Origin: an uncultured Gammaproteobacteria bacterium
GTDB taxonomy: Bacteria; Pseudomonadota; Gammaproteobacteria; Magnimaribacterales; TMED112
Direction of reading: 5' to 3'
Length of the DNA: 55,588 bases
Assembly (NCBI GenBank): GCA_913020145.1
Contig: CAJWAI010000005.1
Span: forward strand, 1-55,588
In this document: in pieces, positions 14,066-37,576 of the stretch
Layout: every line of letters begins with the position of its first letter
How positions within the stretch are numbered: position 1 is the stretch's first letter
Made by a program: the position numbers and the translations under genes
The notes under the pieces: generated by a model
The model's database searches: none
What the model was told of the DNA's origin: nothing
The model's input: the letters and a program-made list of their open reading frames with translations, nothing else

Positions 14066-14078
14066 ATAAATTAGTTAT

Positions 14079-15206
14079 TTAGACATCTTTATGCCATACA
14101 TTTTGATTAACTAAATCAATATTACCCAAGATTATTCTTATAATCTTTTCAGAGACATTATTTACATTGTAATCTTTAACTATTTCTAGATCTCTTTTGT
14201 TGCCTCTTGATTGATTTTTAGTTATTTGAAGAGCATTGATTATCTTATCCAACGATAGCCCTACTGACATGACAGCACCCTCTTCCATTCCCTCTGGTCT
14301 TTCATGTGAAATTCTTAAATTTAATGCAGGGAAGTTAAGAATAGAACTCTCTTCCGTTATTGTTCCGCTATCTGAGAGAACGCACCTAGAATTAATTTGC
14401 AGAGAGCAATAATCAGAAAAACTAAAAGGTTCTAAAAAACTTATATCATCAGAAAAATTAAAATTAGATTCTTCTATTTTTTTCTTAGCTCGTGGATGTG
14501 TTGAGACAATTACAGGTAGTGAAAATTCTTCAACGAGTTTATTTAAGATTTTAGGTACTTTCGTAAGCTTTTCCTCATAGTCAAGATTCTCTTCCCTATG
14601 TAGACTAACTAGAAAGAAATTGTTCTTTTCAATTTTTAATTTACTAAGTACCTTCGAATCTTCTATTTTCTTTGAATAAAAATCTAAAACTTCCTTCATA
14701 GGACTTCCAGTATTTATGACCATATTTTTATCAAAACCTTCACTTAAGAGATATTGTCTTGCTATTTCAGAATAAGTCAGATTGATATCAGATATAACAT
14801 CAACAATTCTTCTATTAATTTCTTCAGGAACTCGGAAATCAAAGCAGCGGTTACCAGCTTCCATATGAAAAATAGGAATCTTTCTTCTTTTAGCTGGTAT
14901 AGCACTTAATGAGCTGTTTGTGTCACCAAGAATCAATACAGCATCTGGCTTTATTTTTTCTAAATGTGTATCTATTTTCTCAATTACAGAAGAAATTGTC
15001 TTCATAGGTGACTTTCCTGCAGCATCAAGATAGATATCGGGTTCTCTTATATCTAAGTCCTTAAAAAAAATTTCATTCAGATTAAAATCATAATTTTGAC
15101 CTGTATGAACAAGAGTGTGAGTAAAATTCTCATCAAGTTTAGGTATAACTCTTGATAACCGTATGATTTCAGGCCTCGTGCCTACTATTGTCATTACTTT
15201 AATCAT
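14079..15206 (-). CDS. UDP-N-acetylglucosamine 2-epimerase family (WecB/WbjD/WbvD-like)
   Basis: VGTRPEIIRLSRVIPKL, HTGQNYD, HMEAGNRCFDFRVPEEINRRIVD, SDSGTITEESSIL. Confidence 0.92.
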   Translation of the reverse strand: MIKVMTIVGTRPEIIRLSRVIPKLDENFTHTLVHTGQNYDFNLNEIFFKDLDIREPDIYLDAAGKSPMKTISSVIEKIDTHLEKIKPDAVLILGDTNSSLSAIPAKRRKIPIFHMEAGNRCFDFRVPEEINRRIVDVISDINLTYSEIARQYLLSEGFDKNMVINTGSPMKEVLDFYSKKIEDSKVLSKLKIEKNNFFLVSLHREENLDYEEKLTKVPKILNKLVEEFSLPVIVSTHPRAKKKIEESNFNFSDDISFLEPFSFSDYCSLQINSRCVLSDSGTITEESSILNFPALNLRISHERPEGMEEGAVMSVGLSLDKIINALQITKNQSRGNKRDLEIVKDYNVNNVSEKIIRIILGNIDLVNQNVWHKDV

Positions 15207-16218
15207 TAAGATTTTCCTGAATGTAAGGTAGTTTAAGGAGCAGATCTACTATTTCATCAACATTTAGCCTAACTGTATTATGTGAATTATATTCTTCATA
15301 ATCTTTTAGCCCTAAATCTCCCTTCTCAAAAAATTCATCATAATTAAGGTTACGTGCGTCCATAGGAGCTCTGAAGAAATTATCCTGTTCTTCTGCTTTT
15401 GATCTTTCTTCTGTCCCTAAAAGGGTTTCATAAATTTTTTCTCCATGCCTTGTGCCAATTATTTTAATTTCTGATTCCTTCTTAAAAATTTTCATTAAAG
15501 CTAATGCTAAATCTTGAATAGTTGATGCAGGAGATTTCTGAACAAAGATATCTCCATTTTCCATATTTGAGAACGCATGCAAAACTAAATTTACTGAATC
15601 TTCAAGAGACATTAAGAATCTTGTCATGTCTGGGTTAGTGATAGTTATAGGTTTACCTGCTTTTATTTGTTCTGTGAATAAAGGAATGACAGACCCCCTT
15701 GATGCCATTACATTTCCATAACGAGTTGCGCAGATTTTGGTATTTGTTCCTTCTAATTTTCTTGCATTAGAAATCATAATTTTTTCCATCATTGCTTTTG
15801 TCATACCCATTACATTGATTGGGTAAACAGCTTTGTCTGTGCTTAATACTATTACTCTTTTTACATCGTTCTTTATTGCTGCTGTAAGTGCATTATTCGC
15901 TCCAATGATGTTTGTCTTGACTGCTTCAAGAGGAAAAAACTCGCAAGAAGGAACTTGTTTTAAAGCAGCAGCATGGAAAACAAAATCTACTCCTTCCATA
16001 GCTGAATGAATGCTCTCATAATCTCTAACATCGCCTAGAAAAAATTTGACTCGATCATCTAAATGTTCAAGTCGCATATCATTTTGCTTTTTTTCATCCC
16101 TACTAAAAATTCTTAGCTCACTAAAATCTGAAGATATAAATTTTTTGAGCACAGCATTACCAAAAGATCCAGTACCTCCAGTGATTAATAATTTTTTATC
16201 TTTAAATAAATCTTTCAT
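15199..16218 (-). CDS. UDP-N-acetylglucosamine 4,6-dehydratase/5-epimerase family (CapD/WbjB/WbvB-like SDR)
   Basis: LLITGGTGSFGNAVLKKF, HAAALKQVPSCEFFPLEAVKTN, MGMTKAMMEKIM, ATRYGNVMASRGSVIPLF. Confidence 0.92.
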   Translation of the reverse strand: MKDLFKDKKLLITGGTGSFGNAVLKKFISSDFSELRIFSRDEKKQNDMRLEHLDDRVKFFLGDVRDYESIHSAMEGVDFVFHAAALKQVPSCEFFPLEAVKTNIIGANNALTAAIKNDVKRVIVLSTDKAVYPINVMGMTKAMMEKIMISNARKLEGTNTKICATRYGNVMASRGSVIPLFTEQIKAGKPITITNPDMTRFLMSLEDSVNLVLHAFSNMENGDIFVQKSPASTIQDLALALMKIFKKESEIKIIGTRHGEKIYETLLGTEERSKAEEQDNFFRAPMDARNLNYDEFFEKGDLGLKDYEEYNSHNTVRLNVDEIVDLLLKLPYIQENLND

Positions 16219-16221
16219 AAT

Positions 16222-17073
16222 TTAATTAAAATTTTTCATAGATTCTATCATAATCTCCCACTCTGATACTTGTATATTCGTTGCTTGCAGGAATTTTTCA
16301 GAGCTAAGACTTCTATCAATTTTAACTTCATCAGAAGGCTCTATTTTTATAGTTTTCTGATATGTCTTCTTAATTAAATTTAATAAATCATATTTTGATA
16401 TAGGCTTTGAAGAGACATGATATAGTCCAGAAAGATCTTCATGGTAAAGAATAATTTTTTCTATGACACTAGATAGCTCGAGAGTAGTCAATCCAGAAAA
16501 AATAGCATTTGTATAACCATAAATTTTGCCTTCTTGCGATAAAAACCACTCTAATAATGATTCTTTAGAATTAATTTCAGGACCAATTATAGAAGTTCTT
16601 AAAGTAAGCGAAGTCTTACCATGAATTTCTCCAATGTATTTTGATTTTCCATAGAGATCTTCAGCATCTGAAAGATCTGTTTCTAAATAATTTCCTTTTC
16701 TGCCTGAAAAAACACAATCTGTACTTATTTGAATCATTCTAATACCTTCTTGATTGCAAAAATAGTGTAACTTATGTGGAAATATTGAATTAATAGGTAA
16801 TACCTTAAGAGGGTCTTGAGCATCATTTAGCTGTTTAATCAGTCCCACACAATTTATTATCACATCAGGCTTATAAGGTTTGATTGTCTCAAAGAACTCT
16901 TCGTCATTCTTTACATCAAGGTTTTCTAAGTGTATGTAGTTTAATTGTTCGTGCTCTTTGAGCTCATTTCTTCTGGAAGTGCCTATCACAGCTAAATTAT
17001 CATTTTTAGATAAGCTCCTAAGCAAAGTGCTGCCTAACATGCCAGTGATACCTACAATTAATATTCTTAACAT
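16222..17073 (-). CDS. RmlD-like sugar-nucleotide 4-reductase (WbvR-like)
   Basis: ILIVGITGMLGSTLL; STDCVFSGRKGNYLE; DLYGKSKYIGE. 283 aa, with no C-terminal cupin domain of the WbjC/CapF type. Confidence 0.82.
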   Translation of the reverse strand: MLRILIVGITGMLGSTLLRSLSKNDNLAVIGTSRRNELKEHEQLNYIHLENLDVKNDEEFFETIKPYKPDVIINCVGLIKQLNDAQDPLKVLPINSIFPHKLHYFCNQEGIRMIQISTDCVFSGRKGNYLETDLSDAEDLYGKSKYIGEIHGKTSLTLRTSIIGPEINSKESLLEWFLSQEGKIYGYTNAIFSGLTTLELSSVIEKIILYHEDLSGLYHVSSKPISKYDLLNLIKKTYQKTIKIEPSDEVKIDRSLSSEKFLQATNIQVSEWEIMIESMKNFN

Positions 17074-17093
17074 AAAAAAAATTAATAACTTAT

Positions 17094-18260
17094 TTAATCA
17101 TTACCCCTAAAAATAAAATCCCAAGACATTTTAGCTGAATTATGCCAAGAAAAATTTTTAGCCCTTGAGAACGATGCATTACAATGATCAATTAATTTAT
17201 CTAAATTATTTAGCTCCTTTAAAATTTTATCTGCTGCAGTTTCTATTTCTTGAATATCTATATACAAATCATGCTCTCCAATAATTTCAGGTATGCAAGA
17301 GGTTTTAGTAGCAAATATAGGTAGTCCTGAAGCCATACCTTCAACAAGAATCATGCCAAATGTTTCTAATGAAGAAACAAACAAATATAAATCAGTTTGA
17401 TCATGTAAGACTGAAATTAATTCTTTTTTATTTAAATCTTCATAAAGTTTAATTTCATCTTTTAAAGATAAGTCTTCAACACACTTTAAAATCTTAGTTT
17501 TAAATGGTCCTTTAGAGATGACTAGATTTAAATTAAAGGCCAAACCTTTATCTTTCAGTTTCCTGAATACCTTAAGAAGTGGAATATGATTCTTATACTT
17601 AAAAGCACTAGCAACATAGGTAAAACTAAGACATTCTTTTTGTTTAATTTTCTTTTGAAGCAGTCCTATTTTTTTTTCTAATTTAGATTGATCAATAAAA
17701 AAATCATCATCAATTCCATGATTAATAACCAGGTAATCTTTTCTTGAAGCTTTCTGCTCATAAATAACTTCCATAGAGTTAATGCTGTGGAAAATATGCT
17801 TTGAAGATTTTGATGAAGAAAGCTTTAAAGATTCTTTTAAAACTTTATTCTTTAATCTTTCAGAAAGGCTTGAGCTGAATAAACTAGATTTTGCAAAAGG
17901 TAAGATATTTTGAAAAATAATAGTTGAATTAGGGTGTCTAAAAAAAAGTAGGCCTCCTGGGCAAAAAACAATATCTGGCTTACTTTTAAAACATATAAAC
18001 CTAAAAAATAATATTTTCCAAATAAATTTCATTGGAAAAGGAAGATTAAATAGAAAGCTAGATTTATATATAAAATAATTATTTTTTGGTAAATCTGCAA
18101 GATATCTTTTATCTACCCAAATGGTGTAAATAATATTATCTGATGGAGCTCTAGCTAAGAGATTATTGAGATGGGTTATGCCTCCACCAGAGCCAATATT
18201 GCTTGCGTCTACATAGACAGAAATATTTTTTTTATTTCTTTTTTCTAGTAAGCTGCGCAT
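17094..18260 (-). CDS. Glycosyltransferase, GT1/GT4 type
   Basis: SFTYVASAFKYKNHIPLLKVF and SSLETFGMILVEGMASGLPIFATKTSCIPEII. The SD GGAGAGGGG precedes ATG at 18260, so the ORF-track start at 18278 is probably too long. Confidence 0.85.
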   Translation of the reverse strand: MRSLLEKRNKKNISVYVDASNIGSGGGITHLNNLLARAPSDNIIYTIWVDKRYLADLPKNNYFIYKSSFLFNLPFPMKFIWKILFFRFICFKSKPDIVFCPGGLLFFRHPNSTIIFQNILPFAKSSLFSSSLSERLKNKVLKESLKLSSSKSSKHIFHSINSMEVIYEQKASRKDYLVINHGIDDDFFIDQSKLEKKIGLLQKKIKQKECLSFTYVASAFKYKNHIPLLKVFRKLKDKGLAFNLNLVISKGPFKTKILKCVEDLSLKDEIKLYEDLNKKELISVLHDQTDLYLFVSSLETFGMILVEGMASGLPIFATKTSCIPEIIGEHDLYIDIQEIETAADKILKELNNLDKLIDHCNASFSRAKNFSWHNSAKMSWDFIFRGND

Positions 18261-19222
18261 AAGAACCCCTCTCCACAAACAAATATCTTGTATACAAAAT
18301 CTAGATTTTTAATAAAAAGGTACAGGAATAATATCGACAAGACAAAAACTTGATTCTTATCTCTATGGTCTAGAAAGAGCATTGTAAATATAAATTGCAT
18401 CATGATTATTCTATCTGTCCCAAGAACAAAGCATGCAATTAAGAAAAATACAAAGCAGGAGCTTGCAAAAAACTTATCTCTCATAAAGATTAAACTTATT
18501 GAGCCCAAAGCAATGGGCTTGGCCAAACTTAAAAGGTCATAAGATGTATATGCGATAAATTTTTCGTAAATAAGATCGTATGTAAATATGGAAAAAATAT
18601 ATATAAAGGCAGCAATCAAAATAAAAGCAATAAAATTTCCTAATTTGAAAATATTAAGTAAAAGGCTGTTTCTGGTAACAGCATGAATGCCTAATAAGAC
18701 TAGGACAAAAAGAGATTGCGCATGAAAAAAGGATGCCAATAAAATAATTAAAGCTCTTGTAAAAAAAGTTTTATAAAAAAATGCTATTAATATCAATATA
18801 GCTGCAAATTTAAGTCTTTCTGCAGCAAAAAATAATACGAACATATAAAAACTTAATAGCATTCCAACAAAGAACCATGTTGGGTATTTAAATTTTCTTA
18901 ATATCTTGAATAAAAGGACAGCTAGTGAAGCATTTGCTAATGAAATTAGTAAGTTCTTGCTTATAAAATTGGAGGACAGCCATATTATTAATGAATAACC
19001 AGGATCAGCTGAACCAATAGATGTAAGTTGTAGAATATATGTATCAAGCAAAGAAAGGCCTTTAGACAACTCATAAAATTCAATGTAGTGAAATTGATCG
19101 CCAGACACATAGAATTGTGCAATGTAAATGGATAATAAAAAGGTAAAAAGAAAAAAACTTAATGCATAAATAGTATTTTTATTAACAAATATGGTTTTTA
19201 AGTATCCTTTTTTTTCAGTCAT
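18245..19222 (-). CDS. EpsG-like polysaccharide polymerase (Wzy-like)
   Basis: Multi-TM protein with SADPGYSLIIWLSS, FAAERLKFAAILIL and SFFHAQSLF motifs. Confidence 0.75.
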   Translation of the reverse strand: MTEKKGYLKTIFVNKNTIYALSFFLFTFLLSIYIAQFYVSGDQFHYIEFYELSKGLSLLDTYILQLTSIGSADPGYSLIIWLSSNFISKNLLISLANASLAVLLFKILRKFKYPTWFFVGMLLSFYMFVLFFAAERLKFAAILILIAFFYKTFFTRALIILLASFFHAQSLFVLVLLGIHAVTRNSLLLNIFKLGNFIAFILIAAFIYIFSIFTYDLIYEKFIAYTSYDLLSLAKPIALGSISLIFMRDKFFASSCFVFFLIACFVLGTDRIIMMQFIFTMLFLDHRDKNQVFVLSILFLYLFIKNLDFVYKIFVCGEGFLCAAY

Positions 19223-20430
19223 TAAATTTGTTTAATTTTATCTTTTTTAAAAAACCTTCTAATCAGAAGAGAGAATAATAAAAACTCTATAAGCAAAACA
19301 GCTACGCTTAAACCTAACTCTTCAAATAATAATATAGAAATAGGAATAAGAAATGAAGAAATTAGTAAAAGGAGGATATTGTACTTAGTAATTAACCATT
19401 CTAATTTTTTCGGAATGAAATACGAGCCAACCAAGAAGTTGTAAGACCATATAAAAGGAATAGAAATAATTAATACGTTAAATACTGGAATTGATTCAGC
19501 ATATTTTTCTCCTAGTAGAAAGGTTATTAAAAATGATGAGAATCCAAGAAGAACAAGAACAATTATAGCCCCCGTAATAAAAATTATAGAGAACAACCTA
19601 ATCTGGCTTTTCCTAGTTTCATCTACTATCTTTGTAAATATTGTTATTGCTATCCTAGTGAGAGGAGAGAATAGTCCTCTAAGTCCTTTAAACAATTTAT
19701 CTGCATTACCAAAGATAGCTACTGTTCTAAAATCAGAGAGAGATCCTAGAATAATCACAGGAAGCATCATAGTCGAGATACCAGAAATTTGGTAATAAAA
19801 TAAGCCACTTAATTTTTTAATCATTCGCATATAATTAGTTTTTATCAAAAATAAATATGTGTATTTAATCCTTAGATACAAAGAACTAAATAATGCAATT
19901 AAAAGATTGTTTATAGCTAAGAAATAGATATAAAAAGATCCTTTATTATCATCTACAACATATAAAAAAATAAAAGTTAAAAAAATTGTTCTAAAAAATA
20001 TTTCAATAGAAATAATAGGAGTAATATTTTTTTCGACTAAAAATACCCAAGATGGATTTAATGAGATTGAAGCACTCAAAATAGCTGACATAAAGAAAAT
20101 TCTTTCGGGGAAAAAGCCCAAATGAACAAAGATATAGCCAAAAACTAATACAAGAAAAATATTAATAATCTTGATGAAATTATATTTGCCAACGATTTTT
20201 TTATCTCTATTAGATGATGATGCGATCTTATTTGTTCCATGAAATTCTATTCCCATATTCAGAAAAAGCAGTAAAAACCCAGCGATAGCCTGAATAAATA
20301 TTATTTCTCCCCACAGATCTAGACTTAGTCTTTGTGACATCAATATTATTGTGAAATAGGGGAAAAATACTGTATTAAAAAGATGCTGAATAAGAGAAGA
20401 ACTTATATATTTTGTATAAAAATGATTCAT
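19222..20430 (-). CDS. Wzx-type oligosaccharide flippase
   Basis: ~400 aa, about 12 hydrophobic segments, polysaccharide-synthase/MOP-like layout, located between Wzy-like and nucleotidyltransferase genes. Confidence 0.78.
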   Translation of the reverse strand: MNHFYTKYISSSLIQHLFNTVFFPYFTIILMSQRLSLDLWGEIIFIQAIAGFLLLFLNMGIEFHGTNKIASSSNRDKKIVGKYNFIKIINIFLVLVFGYIFVHLGFFPERIFFMSAILSASISLNPSWVFLVEKNITPIISIEIFFRTIFLTFIFLYVVDDNKGSFYIYFLAINNLLIALFSSLYLRIKYTYLFLIKTNYMRMIKKLSGLFYYQISGISTMMLPVIILGSLSDFRTVAIFGNADKLFKGLRGLFSPLTRIAITIFTKIVDETRKSQIRLFSIIFITGAIIVLVLLGFSSFLITFLLGEKYAESIPVFNVLIISIPFIWSYNFLVGSYFIPKKLEWLITKYNILLLLISSFLIPISILLFEELGLSVAVLLIEFLLFSLLIRRFFKKDKIKQI

Positions 20431-21356
20431 ATCTGATTATTCAAATAAATTTTTTTGAACTCTGATTTACTCATTTTACTTAGCTTTTTTTGGGCATATA
20501 TTGCAGAATCATTTGTATTTATATCATAGATATAATCGTCATTTGATATTGGTAAAGGGCAAATTCTTTTATTGGCATAAGAAAGAAATGGTATGAAATG
20601 TACAAAATCTATTTCATTAGATTCTTTTGATTGTAATATTTTTTGCGTATCAATAAATTCGGCTAGTTCTGAAAATAAAGAGTATCTAAATATGAAAAGG
20701 GAGCAGTCTTGTTCAGCCCAACCTCTAAAGTTTTTTCCTTCATTTTTATGTGCAATTTCGTTTATTTTCCCTTTTCTATTCCTTAAAAAAGCTACATATG
20801 GATTAAGTTTATATCTTGTAGGGAATGTTAGAGAATTTTCTAGTAAATTATGGATATCTATACTTAGCTCAACATCAGATTTTGGTATCAAAACTAAGTC
20901 TCCCCAAAACATTAATATATCTAAGTCCTTATTAAGAAATTCCTTTACGCTTAATAAGCAATTAGCAGTACCTTTGATTTGATTTTCACTCAACGTGATA
21001 AATTCAACATTGGTGTTTTTTTGCATTTTGTTAAAAAAAGGTAAGTCTTCCTCCCGTACAATCACGAATACCTTAGAAACATTCTGAGGTAGCATGTTTA
21101 TTAAATTTAAAGTATTTGACAGTATGGATCGATTTCCAGATGGATATTTGAATTCATATAAAGTTTTTGGATAGTCGATATTCATTCTTGAGCCTTTTCC
21201 AGCTGCCATTATTACAGCTTGATATTCCTTTTGTTCTATAAATAAATTAGCAGATTGTTTATAAACAGCTTGTTTAAATTTATGAGAGCAAAAATTTTTA
21301 TTAGCAAAATCTTTAAAAGGATCTTGTAACTCTAGAAATAGATCTTTTTTACTCAC
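20427..21356 (-). CDS. NTP_transferase (GlmU N-terminal-like/MobA-like) nucleotidyltransferase
   Basis: AVIMAAGKGSRMNIDYPKTLYEF; KGTANCLLSVKEFL; ILMFWGDLVLI; DINTNDSAIYAQKKL; plus a ~43-aa N-terminal extension. Confidence 0.83.
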   Translation of the reverse strand: MSKKDLFLELQDPFKDFANKNFCSHKFKQAVYKQSANLFIEQKEYQAVIMAAGKGSRMNIDYPKTLYEFKYPSGNRSILSNTLNLINMLPQNVSKVFVIVREEDLPFFNKMQKNTNVEFITLSENQIKGTANCLLSVKEFLNKDLDILMFWGDLVLIPKSDVELSIDIHNLLENSLTFPTRYKLNPYVAFLRNRKGKINEIAHKNEGKNFRGWAEQDCSLFIFRYSLFSELAEFIDTQKILQSKESNEIDFVHFIPFLSYANKRICPLPISNDDYIYDINTNDSAIYAQKKLSKMSKSEFKKIYLNNQI

Positions 21357-22590
21357 TACTTAATATTTTGAGAATACATTTTTTTAATTTATTGCCATCA
21401 TGTTGAAATTTTTTCTCAGGATGAGCTAAATCACTTTCAATTATTTTTACCCAAGGAAATTCTTTATTTAATTCTGCTCCGCTGTAATCTATTGAATAAT
21501 CTTTATCTTCATGGGAGATATCATGACTAGAGACAACTAGATGAGTAATAATTTTTTCTGGATTTATCTCATTTTCTTTAAAATTTTTAAGGGTATGTTT
21601 TAATAAATCTCTTATGAGCTGATTAGCTGAAAAAAAGTTTTGAGTTTCTTTTTTCAAATTCGCTACCATTATTTTAGGACATTCTTTGTTAGAAATTGCT
21701 TTTGCCGCACCTTTTAGTGAAAGACTAGGTAATAAACTAGAAAATGGTGTTCCTGCTCCATAAACAATGCAATCAGCAGTGCTTATAGAATCTTTTGCAT
21801 CGTCTGAAAAATCTTCTAGATATTGGATAGAGTCTAAATGTTTTATTTTCTCTGCTTTTTCTAGAGAACAAATTTCCCTTATTTGTTCCGCTGTAAGGCT
21901 TTCAGGAATCTGAAATATATCTTCAATAAAATCTGTGGTTCTTGATAGAACTATTGAAGCTTCATTAGGCAAAAATATCCCTTGTTTAAGTACTCCACAT
22001 AAATAAGCTGGGGCTTCAGAAGATTGAATAATTCTTACATTACTGAAATCCACGCTAACTATTCGGCTAAATTCTAAAATTGCTGATTTGAAATTAAAAT
22101 TTTTGTCTATAATTTGACTTGCAAATATAATATTACCGATTTTGAAATCACTAAAATCAATTTCTTTATTATCTCTTCCATCGAAATGATTACATAAGTT
22201 CGATAAGCATGATCTAATTGAATTTTCGATATCTCTATCTATCTGATCATGCTCCTCAAGTATAAAAAGTCTTTCTCCATTTAAAAAAGATTGGATTTTA
22301 TCCATTAATTTTTCTTGTTCCTTCTTTGAGTTTGTAGAGGGAAATCTTTTTTCAAATAAATCAACAATTTCATTATTTGAAGAAAGTGAAAGTATTACTT
22401 TAAGAAAATCACTAATGCCATGTGTAGGTTTTGAGAATAAGTATCTTATCTTGCCAGTTGATGCCCCATCATCTAGACCATTAACAATTACACTTAAATT
22501 AAGATTCTTTTTTTCAATATCATGAATAAGAGAATTTAAGAGATTCTTATTCCCTCTTCCACCAGAAAACAAGACAATATTTTTAGACAT
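21349..22590 (-). CDS. CofD/YvcK (GlmR)-family protein
   Basis: NIVLFSGGRGNKNLLNSL; VNGLDDGASTGKIRYLF; HGISDFLKVILSL; ADCIVYGAGTPFSSLLPSL, equivalent to YvcK ADVIVIGPGSLYTSVLPNL. Confidence 0.82.
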   Translation of the reverse strand: MSKNIVLFSGGRGNKNLLNSLIHDIEKKNLNLSVIVNGLDDGASTGKIRYLFSKPTHGISDFLKVILSLSSNNEIVDLFEKRFPSTNSKKEQEKLMDKIQSFLNGERLFILEEHDQIDRDIENSIRSCLSNLCNHFDGRDNKEIDFSDFKIGNIIFASQIIDKNFNFKSAILEFSRIVSVDFSNVRIIQSSEAPAYLCGVLKQGIFLPNEASIVLSRTTDFIEDIFQIPESLTAEQIREICSLEKAEKIKHLDSIQYLEDFSDDAKDSISTADCIVYGAGTPFSSLLPSLSLKGAAKAISNKECPKIMVANLKKETQNFFSANQLIRDLLKHTLKNFKENEINPEKIITHLVVSSHDISHEDKDYSIDYSGAELNKEFPWVKIIESDLAHPEKKFQHDGNKLKKCILKILSSE

Positions 22591-23485
22591 TATTTTTTAA
22601 TCCTAGACTTCTAATTTTATCAAATAATATAGAAATCATTACGATAATCGGAGGATACAGTCTAGCATCATTATAAAGATCTATGGGTCTTCTCTTATCT
22701 AGGGAATATTTTTTAAAATCTCTTATGCCTTCATATAGTCCTGAGAAAAAATGCCAAGGAGAAAGCGCCAACAATGATTTAATGAAGTTATAGAGTAAAT
22801 GAATAATTGTTTCTTTAATTGCTGGAAAAAATGGATAAAACTTCCAAATAAGCCATAACCCATTTCTAGTATAATAATAGTAAAACTTACTTGATAATCT
22901 TTTTTTTGGGGATTCTCTATGAAACGCAACTATGTCAGAAAAATGTTCAATAGTATAGTTGGCATCGATTGTTCTTAGGCTTAAATCAGCTTCACTAGTA
23001 TAAATAAAATATTCTGCTGGCCTCATGCCAATTTTTTCAATAACAGAACTTCTTATTGCTGCAGCACAACCAGTAAAATGATTTTTTAATGGCCAATTTT
23101 TTGGCTCGTTTATTATAGAATTATTATGAGGATTGACGATTCTTGGATCTAAGATTCCTAATTTAGAATTTTTATTAAACTCAACTGATACTCTTTCTAA
23201 TACATCATTACTTAATGAAGCATCACTATCTAAATAAAAAAATATATCTCCAATAGAATTTTCCATTCCTAGATTAAAACCACCTTCACACCCTAGGTTT
23301 TTGTCTGACTTTATTAATTTTACGTAAGGATATTTATTTTCTATCATCTCTAATGATCCATCAGTCGATCCATTATCAACAACTACAATTTCATAATTTT
23401 TATATATCTGTGTTTGAAGAGAAGATAAGGTTTCATTCATATCATCAAGTCGGTTCCAATTAACAATTATTACTGATATGAGCAT
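22583..23485 (-). CDS. Glycosyltransferase family 2 (rhamnosyltransferase-like)
   Basis: ISVIIVNWNRLDDMNETLSSL, VVDNGSTDGSLEMI, FFYLDSDASL. Confidence 0.9.
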   Translation of the reverse strand: MLISVIIVNWNRLDDMNETLSSLQTQIYKNYEIVVVDNGSTDGSLEMIENKYPYVKLIKSDKNLGCEGGFNLGMENSIGDIFFYLDSDASLSNDVLERVSVEFNKNSKLGILDPRIVNPHNNSIINEPKNWPLKNHFTGCAAAIRSSVIEKIGMRPAEYFIYTSEADLSLRTIDANYTIEHFSDIVAFHRESPKKRLSSKFYYYYTRNGLWLIWKFYPFFPAIKETIIHLLYNFIKSLLALSPWHFFSGLYEGIRDFKKYSLDKRRPIDLYNDARLYPPIIVMISILFDKIRSLGLKNNV

Positions 23486-23486
23486 C

Positions 23487-24575
23487 TTAATATGATAATT
23501 TATTGCCCTTTTTGTGCCAATTTTTTGAATTAGGGTTTGTGCTTAAAAAGAAATTGATTAATTTTTCTTCATCAAGTGCTGATTGCTGTTTAGTTATATG
23601 ATTTGCTTCTGCATTGGCTAAGTCATAAAAAATTTTAAACTCAGCATGATCTTCTGAAACTAATGATTTGCATAAAAATAATTGGCCTAATTCAATATGG
23701 ATCATAGTCGTCTTGTCTATATTAGTCATGAAGCTGAAAATATACTTAATTATATTCCTTAAACTATTTTTATAAGCCCTTGAGAAATCTTCTAACGATT
23801 TATTTCTAGTAGTATAGAATTTACATAAAAGCATTTCAGCAACTTCTAAATGAGCTTTTGTAGCTTGTACCCAAAATTTATCTATCTTATTTCTAGAAAT
23901 AGGCTCAAAAACTGGCTGCAATTTAAAACTTGTTGCTTTTTTTACAAATTTACAAAGATGTTTTTTATCTGGAAAGGTATTTAGAAATAATTCTAATCTT
24001 TTGGAATAAAGTGGGTCGTAAAGTCCTCTATCTATAAGCATGGCAGTTGACCAACCTAAAATTGATTTTGATATTTGCTGATAAGACCAGAATAAATCTA
24101 TATCAGATAAATACGAACTCTTGGGCCGAGCTTGAAGCAGGGACACAGGAAATAATAATAAAGGCCTTATGGCTTCAAACATAGGCATTCTAGTTTTATC
24201 CATATGAGGCATTAAATCTAGAATTTTTTCATTTCCAAAAATCTTTTTTGAAGCATATTTCAGGTCATAACTGTACATTGTAAAAGCCATATTTCTCAAT
24301 TGTCGCTTGTTATATATTGTTATATCTACTTGTCTTATTGATAATTTATTTTCTAGTTCATTCCTTAAAGCATTAATAGCATTTTCTTTATAAGATTTGC
24401 TTGTAACAATTACCAAATCATAGTCATTAATTACATGAACATTTCCTTCATGAACCATAATTGAACCTTCGTCTCTGCCAAATCCTCCTACTAGAAAAAT
24501 TGCTTCTAACGAATCTATTTCAGACGTAAGATATCTGACTATTTCATTGATATCAGAATTTATTTTATCTTTCAT
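23487..24575 (-). CDS. Pol-beta-superfamily (MNT-like) nucleotidyltransferase-domain protein
   Basis: VGGFGRDEGS...NDYDLVI...QVDITIY fits the G-G/S, DxD, third-Asp signature. C-terminal helical half not recognised. Confidence 0.7.
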   Translation of the reverse strand: MKDKINSDINEIVRYLTSEIDSLEAIFLVGGFGRDEGSIMVHEGNVHVINDYDLVIVTSKSYKENAINALRNELENKLSIRQVDITIYNKRQLRNMAFTMYSYDLKYASKKIFGNEKILDLMPHMDKTRMPMFEAIRPLLLFPVSLLQARPKSSYLSDIDLFWSYQQISKSILGWSTAMLIDRGLYDPLYSKRLELFLNTFPDKKHLCKFVKKATSFKLQPVFEPISRNKIDKFWVQATKAHLEVAEMLLCKFYTTRNKSLEDFSRAYKNSLRNIIKYIFSFMTNIDKTTMIHIELGQLFLCKSLVSEDHAEFKIFYDLANAEANHITKQQSALDEEKLINFFLSTNPNSKNWHKKGNKLSY

Positions 24576-25797
24576 TGCTTATAGGATCTGATACATCATA
24601 TAAATGCTTAGAAATAATACTATGCACGTGAGTTAAAGGTAATGGGCCCTCTTGCATACTGGTAGCTGTATTTTTTGATAAGGTTATGCAAAAACCATAG
24701 GTGCTCTCTTCAAAAGTTTTATATCCGTGCATTCCCCTGATATCTGATTTTAAATTAAAGAAGTCTGGACTAATAATGGTTCCTGGATTACAGATAAAAA
24801 CTAAATCTCCATATTTCCTACTTTTAGGAATATCATTATTTTCAAAATCCTCAAGTAGAATAGATTTACCAAACTTGTTAAATTGATTATCAATAATTTT
24901 CGATAAGGTTTTTGCATTTTGCTCTTGATTTTCATTAAACCAAAATCTAGCAATAGTTGAATCTAAAAAATAATTAAAGTTTGCTAATGAATTATTGTCT
25001 TTTTTTATTTTAATTAAGCTTTTCTCTAAATTTATTTTGTTAGTAACATCTGTCATCCCGTGATCACCACACAACACTAATACACAATCTTCATCTATCT
25101 CTTGGGCTGCATTTATAAAATCAATAATTAACTTATCAATGTATTTTAAAGAGGATCTTGCGATATCACTATTTGGACCATACTGATGGCCTATAGAATC
25201 CATTCTTGACACATATATTGGATAAAATTGAAAATTTGTATTTTTAAGATTATCTAAAACTAAATTTAGTCTATATTTATCATCTCCTTTTAGTGGTGAA
25301 GACATATCAGTAGTAGCATCTTTAAATACGCCTTGTGCTTTCTTATAAATTGAATCATCTGAGTTTTCTATTAAATTATTAACTCCATCTTCAGTTAAAG
25401 ATAGATTTGATAAATCATTAAACGGTATATTAAATGGGTAAAAGGTTGCTTCTCTATTTTTAAATATTTCCCAAAAAATTCTTCTTATAATCTTTTTAAA
25501 AATTTGAAGTCTAAATATACTTTCAAGTGCAGAGAAAAAAATTAAAGAATTTTTATAGTCTTTATAAGGTGAATTTATTGGATCATATGCAATAGCAGTG
25601 AAGTATCCTGTTTCTTTAGATGATTTGCCAGTTAATATCTCTGTTCTTTCACAAAACCCAAAGCTAGGTCTTAGAGAACTAATATATTCTGATTTTTTTG
25701 ATAGCTTAAAGATATTTGGAGTATCATTTTTATTTATATAGTCGCCTCTAAAGGCGTCAAGGAGTATAAGAATTACGTTTTTATTATAATTCTTCAT
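24565..25797 (-). CDS. Type I phosphodiesterase/nucleotide pyrophosphatase (alkaline phosphatase superfamily)
   Basis: VILILLDAFRGDYI, CERTEILTGKSS, SRMDSIGHQYGP, LVLCGDHGMTD, MHGYKTFEES: full set of AP-superfamily metal and nucleophile motifs. Confidence 0.85.
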   Translation of the reverse strand: MKNYNKNVILILLDAFRGDYINKNDTPNIFKLSKKSEYISSLRPSFGFCERTEILTGKSSKETGYFTAIAYDPINSPYKDYKNSLIFFSALESIFRLQIFKKIIRRIFWEIFKNREATFYPFNIPFNDLSNLSLTEDGVNNLIENSDDSIYKKAQGVFKDATTDMSSPLKGDDKYRLNLVLDNLKNTNFQFYPIYVSRMDSIGHQYGPNSDIARSSLKYIDKLIIDFINAAQEIDEDCVLVLCGDHGMTDVTNKINLEKSLIKIKKDNNSLANFNYFLDSTIARFWFNENQEQNAKTLSKIIDNQFNKFGKSILLEDFENNDIPKSRKYGDLVFICNPGTIISPDFFNLKSDIRGMHGYKTFEESTYGFCITLSKNTATSMQEGPLPLTHVHSIISKHLYDVSDPISNER

Positions 25798-25813: not shown

Positions 25814-26659
25814 TTATTCTCTAGTATTTTGATTCAAAAAATTAAATCTAATTATTGGAATTAAAGCACCAAATACTAAACCTAATATTGCTCCAACAAT
25901 TAAAAATATTACTCTATTAGGTGAGTGTCTTTCTTCTGGAACAAACGGATCTTCAATGCTTTCTAATACATATTCTTCTCTAACATTCGCTAACATCTCT
26001 GAATTTAGATTCTTTTCTAATAGATAGCTTATTGAGGTCTTGATGGAAGTATTTCTTGCAACTTCATATTCTGATTCAAAATACTCTCTAGATTTTTCTA
26101 GTTCAATTAATTTATTTTCTCTGAATACATTATTTACTTCATCAATAATCAATTGAAGAAAATCTCTCGAAAACTCGGGAGAGCCATGCTTGAATGAAAG
26201 AAAGATTAAACCTGTATTTTTGTTAATTGTGGCTGACAAATCTTTTATATAAATTTTTTCATGTACTTCTATATAACTTGAGTCACTATCCAATGTATTA
26301 TTAATTAAATTTTCAGATATTCCATCAAATGAAAGCAAATGGTTCAAAAAAGTTTTTGATTTTATTGTCTCAATAACAATATTATCTAAATTTGTTGCTC
26401 CGCTTTTAAGATTTAATCCTGCTGACTCCGCTAATCCTCCAAAACTTGGAATATCAATAGATGGAATACTGGCATTTGATTGTTCTTGCTCAGCAATATT
26501 TAGAACTGAGTAGGACATAAACTTTGTTGGCACTAAATAACTTATAGAAAGTGATGACACTGAAAATAGAAGAATAAAAATCAAAATTAAATTTCTTGAT
26601 TTCCATAAGTTTTTGATCTGTTCAGTCAGATCAATATAGTCATCTCGTGTTTCATTCAT
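25814..26659 (-). CDS. Wzz-type polysaccharide chain-length determinant
   Basis: DLTEQIKNLWKSRNLILIFILLF N-terminal TM; APNR-like proline segment (PFVPEERHSPNRVIFLIVGAILGLVFGALI) and C-terminal TM; no kinase domain. Confidence 0.88.
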   Translation of the reverse strand: MNETRDDYIDLTEQIKNLWKSRNLILIFILLFSVSSLSISYLVPTKFMSYSVLNIAEQEQSNASIPSIDIPSFGGLAESAGLNLKSGATNLDNIVIETIKSKTFLNHLLSFDGISENLINNTLDSDSSYIEVHEKIYIKDLSATINKNTGLIFLSFKHGSPEFSRDFLQLIIDEVNNVFRENKLIELEKSREYFESEYEVARNTSIKTSISYLLEKNLNSEMLANVREEYVLESIEDPFVPEERHSPNRVIFLIVGAILGLVFGALIPIIRFNFLNQNTRE

Positions 26660-26670
26660 AATACAAATAT

Positions 26671-26757
26671 TGGTGCCCAGGGCCGGACTTGAACCGGCAC
26701 GAAGTCACCTTCGAGGGATTTTAAGTCCCTTGTGTCTACCAATTTCACCACCTGGGC
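26671..26757 (-). tRNA. tRNA-Leu(UAA), CCA encoded
   Basis: Revcomp GCCCAGGTGGTGAAATTGGTAGACACAAGGGACTTAAAATCCCTCGAAGGTGACTTCGTGCCGGTTCAAGTCCGGCCCTGGGCACCA; anticodon loop CTTAAAA; class II variable arm. Confidence 0.96.
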
Positions 26758-26764
26758 AGCAGGA

Positions 26765-27628
26765 TCAAATTTTATCATCAAATGACACATTTTGTTCTTT
26801 CTCCCTATCATCCAAGTCGTTATAATCACCTCTTATTCTATTATTAGTTTTTATTGCTGTCTTTAAAATTGAAAGTTCTACTCCAAGATTTTCTGCAAAT
26901 CTGATCAATGCCGTGCTATCTTTTGGAAAACAAGCTCCACCAAAACCATATTTGCCATCATGTCCTGGCACATTCATATGGCTAGCACCTATTCTTTTAT
27001 CAAGTGACAGAGTCTTAATAACTGATTCCCATGAATCTTCAGAATCTAACTTTCTAAAAACATTAAAAAGTTCATTAAAAAATATTACTTTGGATGCTAA
27101 AAAAGTATTAATTGAATATTTTATTAGCGATGCTGACACAATATCCATGAATACATGCTCTTTGGTCTTGCATCGTGAGTGATATAAGTAATATTTTGAA
27201 ACTTTTGAAGCTGTATTTCTATCTCCACCAAAAATGATCATTTCTGAATTAGCAAAATCTTTATTTGCATGTTTTTCCCTGAGAAATTCTGGGTTATAGA
27301 TTATTTTGTTGTTTAGCTCTGTTAACTTTTTTAAAACTGATGGCAGTACAGTGCTTTTAATAACAATAATAGACTTAGTACATTTTACTGTAAGCTCTTT
27401 TACGACGCTCTCTATTATGGATGAATCATGATCTCCATCATCTCCCATTGGGGTTGGAACACATACGAAAGTTAACTTAGGATCAAATTTTTTTAAATCA
27501 TCTATATCTGTATTATATTTTGGATCAACAATAAATTTTTCAATTCTTCTGCTGAAGCCCCAATCTGTTGCTTTACCAACAAATCCATGACCCACGATAC
27601 CTAATTTAAGTTTTTTAAAGATTCTCAT
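26765..27628 (-). CDS. UDP-glucose/GDP-mannose dehydrogenase family, short form
   Basis: GIVGHGFVGKATDWGF, FVCVPTPMGDDGDHD, YNPEFLREKHA, catalytic GFGGACFPKD. Ends before the usual C-terminal domain. Confidence 0.87.
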   Translation of the reverse strand: MRIFKKLKLGIVGHGFVGKATDWGFSRRIEKFIVDPKYNTDIDDLKKFDPKLTFVCVPTPMGDDGDHDSSIIESVVKELTVKCTKSIIVIKSTVLPSVLKKLTELNNKIIYNPEFLREKHANKDFANSEMIIFGGDRNTASKVSKYYLYHSRCKTKEHVFMDIVSASLIKYSINTFLASKVIFFNELFNVFRKLDSEDSWESVIKTLSLDKRIGASHMNVPGHDGKYGFGGACFPKDSTALIRFAENLGVELSILKTAIKTNNRIRGDYNDLDDREKEQNVSFDDKI

Positions 27629-28565
27629 AAGTTTTATGCCAGTTTAAAAATTCTTTAATGCCGTCTTCAAAGCTAGTTTTAGGATTATATCCTAAGATTC
27701 TTTTAGATTTACTAAGATTTGCATGTGTAAATACTGACTCATTGGAGGTATTAATTCTCTTTACTTTCGGTTCAATATTAAGATTTTCCTTTAAAGAATT
27801 CAGTAAAAATGATGTCATTATTGGCGAATTATTACCAAGATTAAAAATCTCATTGCGTCCATTAAGGTCTTCTTTAATTAAATAATCTATAGATGCTGAT
27901 ATTCCTTCAATTACATCATCAATATAAGTCATATCTCTTGCCATTGATCCATCATTATGAAGTCTTACAACTTCATCTCTTTTTATTGAGTCTGTAAAAG
28001 AAAAATATGCCATATCCGGTCTTCCATAAGGCCCATATACTGAAAATAATCTCAGTCCTAGAAAAGACATATTATTCTCACTTGCAAAAGCACTTGCATA
28101 CACTTCATTAAAAAGTTTGCTCATACCATATACCGATTTAGGTTTAATTAATGTTTTTGACTCTGAAAATGGCTCTGAATTTGAATCATCATATACAGAG
28201 CTACTAGATGCATAAATTATTCGTTTAATTTTATTTCGTGAACAAAAATTACAGATATTCTTAAATCCATAAATATTAGAATTAATGTAATTTATTTCTT
28301 GTTCTTTCTTTATTCTTACTCCTGCTTGAGCAGCTAGATTTATAACCAAATCAAAATTTTGATCAAAATTATCTATTTTGTTGATATCACTCTCATAAAA
28401 CTTAAATTTTTTTGAATCTAACTCTGAGAGTCGAAGTCTTTTTAAAGTAGGGGTGTAGTAATCATTAATATTATCGATTCCGACTATTTCATGTCCCTGC
28501 TCAATTAGTTTTTTTGCTAAATGAAATCCAATGAATCCAGCTACGCCTGTGATTAAAATTCTCAT
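27615..28565 (-). CDS. UDP-glucuronate 4-epimerase-like extended SDR
   Basis: ILITGVAGFIGFHLAKKLIEQGHEIVGIDNINDYYTPTLKRLRL, NLAAQAGVRI, VYGMSKLFNE, LRLFSVYGPYGRPDMA. Confidence 0.87.
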   Translation of the reverse strand: MRILITGVAGFIGFHLAKKLIEQGHEIVGIDNINDYYTPTLKRLRLSELDSKKFKFYESDINKIDNFDQNFDLVINLAAQAGVRIKKEQEINYINSNIYGFKNICNFCSRNKIKRIIYASSSSVYDDSNSEPFSESKTLIKPKSVYGMSKLFNEVYASAFASENNMSFLGLRLFSVYGPYGRPDMAYFSFTDSIKRDEVVRLHNDGSMARDMTYIDDVIEGISASIDYLIKEDLNGRNEIFNLGNNSPIMTSFLLNSLKENLNIEPKVKRINTSNESVFTHANLSKSKRILGYNPKTSFEDGIKEFLNWHKTYENL

Positions 28566-28569
28566 AATC

Positions 28570-28643
28570 TGGAGGCTGAGAACGGAATCGAACCGATGTT
28601 AACGGAGTTGCAGTCCGCTGCATAACCACTCTGCCACTCAGCC
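28570..28643 (-). tRNA. tRNA-Cys(GCA), CCA encoded
   Basis: Revcomp GGCTGAGTGGCAGAGTGGTTATGCAGCGGACTGCAACTCCGTTAACATCGGTTCGATTCCGTTCTCAGCCTCCA; anticodon loop CTGCAAC. Confidence 0.95.
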
Positions 28644-28661: not shown

Positions 28662-30017
28662 CTAATAGGTGTAAGAATCATCCTTAAATGGACCTTCTTT
28701 ACTTACGGAGATATATTCTTCTTGTTCATTTGTTAATTTTGTTAATGTTCCGCCAAAACCTTTAACCATCAAACTTGCTACTTCTTCATCTAGTTTTTTT
28801 GGTAAAACTTTTACATATAATTCTTTCTGATCATCAGATTTATCAGCAAAACCATCTTTAAATAATGCAATTTGTGCAAGAACTTGATTACAGAAAGATC
28901 CATCCATGACTCTACTTGGATGTCCAGTTGCTAGTGCTAGATTAACTAATCTACCCTCACCTAAAAGGATAATATATTCATCTTTATTCTTTATTACTTT
29001 ATGAACGCCAGGTTTAATCTCTTTCCACTCATAATTTTTTAAATGTTTAACATCTATTTCGCTATCGAAATGCCCTATATTGCATACAACACATCCGGAC
29101 TTTAGGGCATCTAACATATGCTTATCCAAAACATTAACATTGCCTGTTGTGGTAACAACTAAATCGTATTTTGCTAATAGTTTTTTATCTAAATTCATAC
29201 CATCTTTGCCAACATTGCCATTTTCATAGGCAGAAACAACGCTGAATCCATCAAAACATGCTTGCATTGCACAGATTGGATCAATTTCAGTGATATCTAC
29301 GATCATTTTTTGTTGATTTAATGAGTCAGCTGAGCCCTTACCTACATCACCATAACCAATGACAAGAGCTTTCTTGCCAGATAAAAGCATGTCTGTTCCT
29401 CGTTTGATAGCATCATCCAGACCATGCCTACATCCATATTTATTATCATTCTTAGATTTAGTAATGGAGTCATTTACATTTATTGCTGGGACTTTTAATT
29501 CACCACTTTCTAACATTTCTTTCAATCTTTTAACTCCTGTCGTAGTTTCTTCAGAAATTCCATGGATTTTTGAAAGCATTTCAGGATATTCTTTATGAAC
29601 TTTAAGAGTAAGGTCACCTCCATCGTCCAGAATCATATTAGCTTCCCAAGGTTTGTCATCTTTATTGATGGTCTGATCTAAACACCACTCATACTCTTCT
29701 TCTGTTTCACCTTTCCAGGCAAAAACAGGAATGCCTTGATCAGCAATTGCAGCAGCTGCATGGTCCTGAGTTGAGAAAATGTTACATGAAGACCATCTAA
29801 CCTCAGCGCCTAATTCAATTAAAGTCTCAATTAAGACAGCAGTTTGAACAGTCATATGTATACAGCCCATTATTTTTGCGCCCTTAAGAGGACGTTTATC
29901 TCTGTAATTATCTCTTAATTGCATTAAAGCAGGCATTTCATCTTGAGCTAATAAAATTTCTTGCCTTCCATATTCTGCAAGAGAAATATCTTTTACTTTG
30001 TAATCTTGCTTACTCAT
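28662..30017 (-). CDS. ahcY: S-adenosylhomocysteine hydrolase
   Basis: [44 protein letters not shown]. GGAGATaaaaATG supports MSKQDYKV... start at 30017. Confidence 0.96.
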
Positions 30018-30453
30018 TTTTATCTCCTTTAGAATCATACTGCCAATTCTTTAAAATCCAACTACTTGAATTCTTTTTATTTGTGCCGCCAACCCCAAAC
30101 ATAAATTTAATTCCTTTAACGTCTTTCTCAGGTATATTATCTTCACTTCGATCGCCGCCATTACAGAAGGTTATATCTGTATCAGGATATATATTTTTAA
30201 TTTTCTCTAAAGCATCTACACAACTTCCATCGCTATCATCAAAGTCAATTACCTCGTCGACATATTTAATTGATTCAAGTATTTGTTTTCTTTCAGAAAA
30301 TTCCATGAAAGGCTTACCCTTTTTTTCTGAAAGCCAATTATCTGAATTCAATGCGACTATGAGATAATCTGCATTCTTTTTAGCTTCTGAGATGTAGTCG
30401 ATATGACCAGAATGAATGGGATCAAATCCACCACTTACAACTGCAATTTTCAT
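30010..30453 (-). CDS. Adenylyl/cytidylyltransferase-family protein (RfaE C-terminal-like)
   Basis: [22 protein letters not shown] nucleotidyltransferase motif. ATG at 30453 overlaps the metK stop as ATGA, so the ORF-track start at 30474 is probably too long. Confidence 0.8.
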
Positions 30454-35830: not shown

Positions 35831-37576
35831 TTAATTATAGAGCTCTTTTGTAAGAGTTTGAATCTCTTTTGCTAATTCTAATTTTATGTTCAAATCTTTT
35901 GAAATGTCCTGGGCTGACAATTCAACCAATGATCTTAAAGATGCATATTTTTCATAGATTTTTTGTACTGTTTTAGGTCCTATGCCTTTTATATCAAAAA
36001 GGAAATGCTTCTTCATATCCTTTCTTTTATTGCTCTTAAAATTCTTTAATGCAAACCTATGCGCTTCATCTCTAATATCAAGAAATAGTTTAGAAATATC
36101 TTCAGAATTCTGAAAATCATACGAACCAATTTTTGTGTGCAGTGTTTCATGCCCATACTTTCTTTTTGTACCTTTTGAGATAGAGATACACTCTATTTCT
36201 CTGTTTAATCTCTCTTTAATATAATTCATATGAGTTTTGCCTCCATCGATTAACAACAAATCAATAGGACTGACTAAATCTAAGTACTTATTTATACCAA
36301 ACACTAACGAATCTAAATCTGAACTTGAAATATCTAAAGGCACTCTAAAAAACCTATATAAAGACTTATTAGGGCCATCAGAATCAAAATTAACACATGA
36401 AATTGTTTTTATATCCCCTGATATACCGCTAACATCAAAACCAACAATTACTGGTTCTTTCTTAACTTCAAGATTTCGTGAAAGGAAATCTAGAGACTGA
36501 GCATATTTTTGATATTTTTGCTCTTGTTTTAGTAATCCTTCAAGCGCATTCTTATCTGCTAATTTTACCCATTCTAATTTTTTTCCTTTTTTAGGCACTT
36601 CAAATTGTAAATTCCCAAAAGTATCATTTTTTGCAACATTAAACTCGCTGACTATTTTTGTCACAGATGGATATTTTTGTATGAGGCTTGGAATAAACTC
36701 CAAAAAAGCAGAGTAATCGTCTTTCTGCAAATGGTTTTTAAATAGAAACTTCTGGATGTTGATAAATCTATCTGATTCAACTTGTATTACTGCAGTTGAG
36801 ATATTTTTATCATTAGTTTTAATGGCTATTACTCGAGTATTGCTTCCTTTTGAAAAAATAATTTGCTTTTGATTAATCTTTTCAAGCTGTTCTAATCGAT
36901 CTCTAGTATTGGCTGCTAGCTCATATTCTTCGTTATCTGATGCAATAAGCATTTCATCCTGCATTTTTTTTTCTAGCTCTTTAAAATTTCCTTTCAAAAT
37001 TGATTTTGTGCTTTCGACATCCTTGCTATATTCAGCTTCTGATATTATTCCAACACATGGCGCTGTACACCTTCCAATTTGATGTTCCATGCATGGTCTT
37101 GATCTATTTTTAAAAAAATTATCTGTACATGTTCTTAGCTGAAATACCTTTTGAATTTGGCTTACTGCAATTTTCGTTGCGTAAGCACTTGTATATGGGC
37201 CATATAAACCATCATGCCCTTTTAATACACGTTTTGATGCGATTCTAGGGAAAGAATGTGATTCATCAAGATGAATGAATGGATAACTCTTATCATCCCT
37301 AAGTAGAATATTAAACTTGGGTTTTTCAGATTTTATTAAATTTTGCTCTAATAATAATGCGTCAACTTCATTATTAGTGGTTACATATTCCAAATTAGTT
37401 GCATAGGAAATTAACTTTTGCGTTTTATAAGTCTGTTTACCGGAAAAATAACTGTTTATTCTTTTTTTTAGATTCTTTGCTTTGCCAATATAAAGTATTT
37501 CTGCGTCAGATAGGAATTTATAAATTCCTGTGTCATTGGGAAAACTTGATGAGATTTTTTTAAGCTTATTTATCAA
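35831..37576 (-). CDS. uvrC: Excinuclease ABC subunit C
   Basis: GIY-YIG-type GIYKFLSDAEILYIGKAKNLKKRINSYF; GYRxGRCxAPC region EHQIGRCTAPCVG; C-terminal HhH. Confidence 0.96.
   Translation of the reverse strand: MINKLKKISSSFPNDTGIYKFLSDAEILYIGKAKNLKKRINSYFSGKQTYKTQKLISYATNLEYVTTNNEVDALLLEQNLIKSEKPKFNILLRDDKSYPFIHLDESHSFPRIASKRVLKGHDGLYGPYTSAYATKIAVSQIQKVFQLRTCTDNFFKNRSRPCMEHQIGRCTAPCVGIISEAEYSKDVESTKSILKGNFKELEKKMQDEMLIASDNEEYELAANTRDRLEQLEKINQKQIIFSKGSNTRVIAIKTNDKNISTAVIQVESDRFINIQKFLFKNHLQKDDYSAFLEFIPSLIQKYPSVTKIVSEFNVAKNDTFGNLQFEVPKKGKKLEWVKLADKNALEGLLKQEQKYQKYAQSLDFLSRNLEVKKEPVIVGFDVSGISGDIKTISCVNFDSDGPNKSLYRFFRVPLDISSSDLDSLVFGINKYLDLVSPIDLLLIDGGKTHMNYIKERLNREIECISISKGTKRKYGHETLHTKIGSYDFQNSEDISKLFLDIRDEAHRFALKNFKSNKRKDMKKHFLFDIKGIGPKTVQKIYEKYASLRSLVELSAQDISKDLNIKLELAKEIQTLTKELYN

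Follow-up and report, generated by a model that had tools for sequence, protein, structure and literature searches.

The tRNA-Cys and tRNA-Leu genes, which stand side by side in Escherichia coli, can be found in a member of SAR86 (order Magnimaribacterales; PMC11582366) with two sugar genes between them, and it can be asked how this separation came about and what maintains it. In this study, we analysed a whole stretch of 55,588 nucleotides, called the window here, which is contig 5 of a 934-kb metagenome-assembled genome (MAG) with 83% completeness. The initial annotation had described a tRNA-Cys followed on the same strand by a tRNA-Leu(UAA), enclosing only an epimerase and a dehydrogenase gene, with Wzz after the tRNA-Leu, and this layout was confirmed by ARAGORN, Rfam and Pfam (Table 1). 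Our data are best read, with a probability of about 0.75, as a hypervariable surface-polysaccharide island of the replacement type, which has a once-contiguous Cys/Leu pair as its proximal edge and in which homologous recombination exchanges the cassettes, the tRNAs serving as anchors.

Table 1. Features of the window around the split tRNA pair
Feature	Position	Strand	Evidence and remarks
Polysaccharide island 3' of tRNA-Leu	72..25797	-	Pfam
Wzz chain-length determinant	25814..26659	-	PF02706, E 2.7e-7; opens the downstream polysaccharide locus
tRNA-Leu(UAA)	26671..26757	-	ARAGORN; Rfam, E 2e-10; intact, CCA encoded; right anchor of the slot
Short UDP-glucose 6-dehydrogenase-like protein (sUGD), 287 aa	26765..27628	-	PF03721 and PF00984 only
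NAD-dependent UDP-sugar epimerase, TviC/GalE-like	27615..28565	-	Pfam PF01370, E 4.5e-47
tRNA-Cys(GCA)	28570..28643	-	ARAGORN; Rfam RF00005, E 5e-11; intact, CCA encoded; left anchor of the slot
ahcY (adenosylhomocysteinase), core gene	28662..30038	-	TIGR00936, above cut-off
uvrC	35831..37576	-	Pfam UvrC domains; used as phylogenetic marker

The genes of the window are packed very closely. Along the minus strand, ahcY is separated by 18 nt from tRNA-Cys, the ATG of the epimerase lies 4 nt past the CCA end of this tRNA, the epimerase overlaps the dehydrogenase by 14 nt, and the dehydrogenase stop is followed by 7 nt, tRNA-Leu, 11 nt and the Wzz start. A chance layout was dismissed because both tRNAs are intact with encoded CCA, and because their order and strand are repeated in nearly all relatives. 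The island beyond Wzz harbors glycosyltransferases, a UDP-GlcNAc 2-epimerase, a capsule-type dehydratase, an export/SLBB protein and YjbH, and a pyruvate dehydrogenase pair (2112-5875) also sits within it, all assigned by Pfam. The placement of uvrC upstream, as the initial annotation had it, is correct, but about 7 kb, with the genes glyoxalase-infC-rplT-pheST-metK-nucleotidyltransferase-ahcY, separate it from the tRNAs, to which it is no longer adjacent in the window's family. Two side observations concern these intervening genes. PheS and PheT of the window (31564-34220) have 240 and 645 aa, compared with 327-331 and 671-677 aa in other SAR86 families, and N-terminal domains are missing across the window's family, as the profile matches begin at positions 57 and 157. 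The nucleotidyltransferase (30010-30474), which recurs beside the Cys/Leu tRNAs in families f3 and f4, has 154 aa, while relatives mostly have 252-274 aa, including an extra C-terminal stretch in which visual inspection suggests a cupin-like sequence.

The comparison covered 61 SAR86 genomes, which are species-level representatives and include some contig-broken MAGs. The window's family (f1, genomes G000 to G020) contributed 21 genomes, of about 1 Mb in size, and families f2 to f4 contributed 40. Real loss of tRNA-Cys was considered for seven genomes of the window's genus and set aside; assembly dropout of the island is more likely, because contigs end at uvrC in G019 and G020. Searches of G007 (one contig, 1.0 Mb, 93% complete) recovered neither uvrC nor ahcY, and neither tRNA-Cys nor tRNA-Leu(UAA) at full length; the island was probably lost in assembly there as well.

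With reference to the ancestral arrangement, the E. coli sequence record confirmed the order uvrC-pgsA-glyW-cysT-leuZ, with tRNA-Gly, tRNA-Cys and tRNA-Leu(UAA) contiguous 3' of uvrC-pgsA, as the initial annotation had stated. A 303-bp query consisting of the E. coli tRNA cluster was searched against 73 genomes from 73 other gammaproteobacterial families, and by a hand count that gives a lower bound, at least roughly half of them carry two or all three of these tRNAs in the E. coli order and no more than 500 bp apart. Within SAR86, f2, f3 and f4 keep the order uvrC-pgsA-tRNA-Cys-tRNA-Leu. The Cys-Leu adjacency is thus ancestral, being present in E. coli, in many gammaproteobacterial families and in all four SAR86 families, as the initial annotation had proposed in deriving the layout from a pair split by polysaccharide genes. 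The full E. coli-type cluster, with pgsA between uvrC and the tRNAs and tRNA-Gly in first place, was not seen in SAR86, as f1 is without pgsA and the SAR86 loci are without tRNA-Gly. The suggestion that tRNA-Gly had moved also proved right: none of the SAR86 Cys/Leu loci examined contains it, its position in G012 is 529,681, with tRNA-Cys some 340 kb distant, and it had already left the cluster in every SAR86 locus examined.

A tRNA-Leu was located in 46 SAR86 genomes, and in 16 of these it is contiguous with tRNA-Cys. Each of the four families has at least one such relative, f1 being represented by G008. The spacers measure 24-81 bp in 14 of these genomes, and 258 and 282 bp, free of genes, in the other two. 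In the 30 non-contiguous genomes, 0.8 to about 82 kb lie between Cys and Leu, or the two are rearranged or unlinked. On the UvrC tree (43 labelled genomes), the contiguous/split state changes 9 times, and at least eight changes are forced by well-supported branches, with gains and losses indistinguishable from each other. An insertion into the tRNA cluster stands in outline, with the correction that splitting recurs across the order. Neither a pair that was never adjacent nor a single layout throughout the clade was found: adjacency occurs in all families, and the content of the slot between the two tRNAs varies between close relatives.

The slot contents are diverse in detail and similar in theme. 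In f1, the slot holds an epimerase-UGD pair in G000, G001, G002 and G005, about 20 kb in G003 and G009, a pyruvyltransferase with an unknown gene in G006, and a PQQ-dependent dehydrogenase with a type-B UGD in G004, G012 and G015, and it is empty in G008. The epimerase-dehydrogenase content is common to a sub-clade of the window's genus. In f4, the epimerase occurs alone (G032), with a short UGD (G038), or at the end of a 9.6-kb insert (G029), and the window-type epimerase occupies the corresponding position in G001, G002, G005 and G017 of f1, G024 of f2, and G032 and G038 of f4. The gene just 5' of tRNA-Leu encodes a UDP-glucose, UDP-glucuronate or epimerase step in 24 of the 30 split genomes, across four families (sUGD 15, GalU 4, epimerase 3, full-length UGD 2). 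Directly 3' of tRNA-Leu there is Wzz in 17 genomes, an RfaH-like gene in five and MarR_EPS in one; these are length-control or regulatory genes typical of polysaccharide operons. Inserts unrelated to polysaccharides are also seen in the slot, such as the PQQ-dependent dehydrogenase, an inositol-monophosphatase-like gene and an ABC transporter. A pair of small kinase-like and nucleotidyltransferase-like genes (about 135 and 130 aa) was seen in four genomes, each time beside tRNA-Cys or tRNA-Leu. In G057, tRNA-Leu is only about 15 kb from infC-rplT-pheST, which suggests a small or absent island with its far border visible.

Regarding the cassette of the window, the best NCBIfam matches of the epimerase were a heptose epimerase and TviC, both below their cut-offs, and the protein may be a UDP-glucuronate or UDP-GlcNAcA 4-epimerase-like enzyme. 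The sUGD displays the Rossmann (NAD-binding) and central domains and the cysteine motif GGxCxPKD, in the catalytic-type form GGACFPKD, with G230, G231, C233, K236 and D237 invariant in the alignment of short forms. The C-terminal UDP-binding domain PF03720 is absent from it, the protein stops about 20 residues past the central domain, and it scores 153.6 bits against TIGR03026, below the cut-off of 189.8; it is a predicted UDP-glucose 6-dehydrogenase, judged from its sequence. Among SAR86 dehydrogenases, the short forms make up one clade (100/98) with two types, A and B, and in a whole-genome search of the 61 genomes all short-form matches lay within the tRNA cluster.

The same gene pair was encountered in viruses. 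Scanning IMG/VR for sUGD gave at least 583 related contigs; the epimerase adjoins sUGD in 46 of the best 80 of these, mostly in the window's order, and viral contigs from aquatic sources widely carry the short UGD, often together with the epimerase. The genes around it in the contigs tested encode UvsX, DnaB helicase and further phage proteins. A search of a phage collection gave weak matches only, except for phage C48C1 (OQ984149), which carries the epimerase and short UGD pair among its replication genes. A joint tree places type A, to which the window's sUGD belongs, together with viral sequences (98/97), a few viral branches falling outside this group, and type B is separate. The direction of transfer of the cassette between phage and host can be called probable from this tree, which consists of SAR86 sequences and viral ones picked by similarity. 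The description of the insert as a UDP-sugar cassette was sound as to the genes, and has to be supplemented: it is a phage-type two-gene module, as seen in IMG/VR and in phage C48C1. As a side observation, a glucosyltransferase-like HMC gene lies nearby in one viral contig, and viral sUGD may serve the glycosylation of DNA bases or of surfaces.

Expression of the tRNAs was considered across genomes. A scan of the window alone for sigma-70 promoters and terminators did not rise above shuffled sequences, and because of this only the multi-genome count of -10 boxes was used. Of 47 genomes, 43 have a -10-like hexamer before tRNA-Cys, compared with a mean of 24.5 and a maximum of 35 in shuffled sequences, and these hexamers concentrate 8-10 nt upstream. 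Before tRNA-Leu, the contiguous genomes showed five exact -10 boxes in 16, with 0.9 expected, and the signal of the split genomes was weak, without significant enrichment at one mismatch. A -10-like GATAAAAT, conserved in the window's sub-clade, lies within the final codons of sUGD before tRNA-Leu, and an upstream motif there is common to G001, G002, G005 and G011. Furthermore, 20 of the 69 genes located 3' of a tRNA on the same strand start no more than 7 nt from it. By analogy with the tRNA punctuation of mitochondria, tRNA processing might free nearly leaderless mRNAs here, which we put forward as a testable idea only.

Breakpoints were mapped by pairwise blastn of oriented loci. In many pairs of close relatives, similarity ends 0-2 nt from a tRNA 3' end, and in some others it runs on for a few to 19 nt. 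Past tRNA-Leu, it ends at +1 nt in G030/G051 (95% over 3.2 kb), at +0 in G041/G026 (81%) and at +0 in G000/G001 (73%); past tRNA-Cys, it ends at +2 in G047/G056 (92%), at +1 in G029/G038 (85%) and at +1 in G026/G059 (80%), where homology restarts at position 1 of tRNA-Leu. The loci occupy the same chromosomal place with core flanks, which are the uvrC-pgsA border in f2-f4 and the ahcY-Cys border in f1 (ahcY adjoins tRNA-Cys in eight f1 genomes), and gene maps and families show non-homologous content with a shared surface-glycan function. By analogy with known islands (PMC4033161, PMC11898729, PMC10872708), we infer homologous recombination as the agent of exchange. The near-identical tRNA genes, together with the core genes beyond, would serve as anchors for the exchange of cassettes between cells, and the cassettes would be retained under changing selection, for instance phage recognition of surface sugars. 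In the window, sUGD would supply UDP-glucuronate, and the epimerase its 4-epimer, to the downstream polysaccharide genes. Both tRNAs are expected to remain functional, because no insert interrupts a mature tRNA, a promoter of its own is retained by tRNA-Cys, and tRNA-Leu is served either by a separate -10 box or by read-through from the sugar genes. Among the SAR86 species-level representatives, no recent donor-recipient pair, with near-identical cassettes in divergent backbones, was found.

Breakpoints at tRNA ends would be expected of recombination anchors and also of cutting by an integrase, and a tyrosine recombinase may have used the 3' ends of tRNA-Cys and tRNA-Leu as entry points for the cassettes, in the manner of classical tRNA-targeted islands or tycheposons. 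Homology that stops within 0-2 nt of these ends is what tRNA attB sites predict, and in Dickeya the corresponding group of three tRNAs borders secondary-metabolite gene clusters that are variable and contain remnants of integrases (PMC9765074). However, we regard an integrase as quite improbable, because no exact copy of 14 nt or more of either tRNA, as an attL/attR-type repeat would leave, occurs elsewhere in the loci, and because a motif test on 1062 ORFs of these loci (up to about 20 kb each), which recovered the XerC/D control, detected no tyrosine recombinase. Moreover, the inserts are metabolic cassettes of one or two genes without mobility genes.

The layout may instead be old and vertically inherited, the short dehydrogenase having entered the Cys/Leu junction once, before the families split, with later deletions giving the contiguous genomes and no exchange going on. 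The type-A short UGDs of f1, f3 and f4 do form one clade (100/99), in which f1 and f3 are each monophyletic and the gene is always in the tRNA cluster, and both short-UGD gene trees are each compatible with a single old gain per type, followed by losses. We nevertheless find such a history unlikely: sister lineages, in f1 as well as in f4, carry the distinct types A and B at one and the same site, close relatives fill the slot with the epimerase alone, GalU alone, long inserts or unrelated genes, and the adjacent Cys-Leu spacers of f2-f4 hold promoter-like sequence rather than gene remnants. It is even harder to credit that compaction and operon fusion in small AT-rich genomes joined tRNAs and sugar genes by chance, leaving the tRNAs no special role. 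Tiny intergenic distances throughout, the extensive rearrangement and loss in f1, and the large rearrangements that separate Cys and Leu in G058, G049, G043 and G046 are in line with streamlining, but chance would hardly account for a UDP-glucose-pathway gene recurring just 5' of tRNA-Leu in four families, nor for breakpoints that fall on tRNA ends. Exchange of cassettes by homologous recombination at the tRNAs is therefore the reading we retain.

The fate of pgsA, which the initial annotation took to be moved or lost, extends beyond this locus. The gene is lost in f1 only, f2-f4 keeping it between uvrC and tRNA-Cys, and a mere move does not describe the case, as cdsA, Pss and PlsC are missing too. 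PF01066 (PgsA/Pss-type) is present in all 40 f2-f4 genomes and absent from the 21 f1 genomes except for one contig of G018, which has an f3-like uvrC and tRNA-Cys and was taken as contamination. PF01148 (CdsA) was detected in 0 of 21 f1 genomes against 20 of 20 outside f1, and PlsC in 0 of 9 f1 genomes against 6 of 7 controls. Where f2-f4 carry cdsA between uppS and dxr, these two genes directly adjoin or overlap each other in eight f1 genomes, among them G000 (C16:1900-4600). In G012, a near-complete genome with one 72-kb block masked, neither sensitive HMM searches nor motif searches recovered PgsA, CdsA or PlsC, and this genome retains LpxA, LpxB, LpxD, LpxK, MsbA, WaaA, FabD, FabG and AcpP. 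Loss of pgsA thus apparently goes with family-wide loss of cdsA, Pss and PlsC, a pattern in which divergent enzymes or the masked block could hide members. A loss of plsX specific to f1 was also considered and dropped; E. coli PlsX and PlsY queries match no SAR86 genome. Separately, a single 917-codon open frame of G012 (439844-442597) matches both MsbA and LpxK and is apparently a fusion. In the literature searched, there was no report of loss of the CDP-diacylglycerol branch in SAR86. It is conceivable, and we offer it tentatively, that f1, from ocean-plankton lineages, lives without this branch (no CdsA, PgsA/Pss-type enzyme or PlsC) and yet makes lipid A and surface polysaccharide, so that its membrane lipids would have to be scavenged or built otherwise. 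In this reading, the essential tRNA genes of the same locus would anchor exchanged phage-type UDP-sugar cassettes, and might also act as punctuation marks in their processing. The missing phospholipid branch is the most surprising by-product of this study and deserves separate investigation; if confirmed, a family without CDP-diacylglycerol phospholipid synthesis would be a serious membrane-lipid puzzle.

Precedents for such islands and their replacement have been described (PMC3569297, PMC4033161, PMC11898729, PMC10872708). The O-chain replacement flexible genomic islands of Pelagibacter and Alteromonas (PMC4033161, PMC11898729) are similar in their fixed place, surface-polysaccharide genes, content replaced between relatives, lack of mobility genes and proposed homologous recombination via conserved flanks. 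They differ from SAR86, in which two tRNA genes in or at the island edge mark the breakpoints and small cassettes lie between them; the borders in Pelagibacter are rRNA genes. A replacement island of a streamlined aquatic family is likewise bordered by tRNA genes, with an RNA gene inside, but other tRNAs are concerned, whereas SAR86 splits a once-contiguous pair by one to many genes. In the Dickeya glyW-cysT-leuZ hot spot (PMC9765074), the orthologous tRNA cluster also borders gene clusters that vary between strains, but these are secondary-metabolite clusters with integrase and transposase remnants, and the three tRNAs flank them unsplit. Within the same clade, subgroup IIIa of SAR86 has a hypervariable outer-membrane region (PMC3569297) that shares surface-modification genes and poor metagenome coverage, although the passage describing it gives no tRNA or uvrC-pgsA location. 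The epimerase and short UGD pair of marine phages (C48C1, OQ984149; IMG/VR) has the same genes, order and short dehydrogenase form, at 35-50% identity, but sits among UvsX, DnaB helicase and primase and not between two tRNAs.

The phage-type origin of the cassette ties the island to viruses, and since the locus is fixed and marked by tRNAs, two tRNA probes could pull the variable region from long-read metagenomes and test phage-driven cassette exchange. In summary, the SAR86 system is a variant of the known replacement islands, set apart by its tRNA breakpoints, order-wide recurrence, phage-type cassette and missing phospholipid branch.
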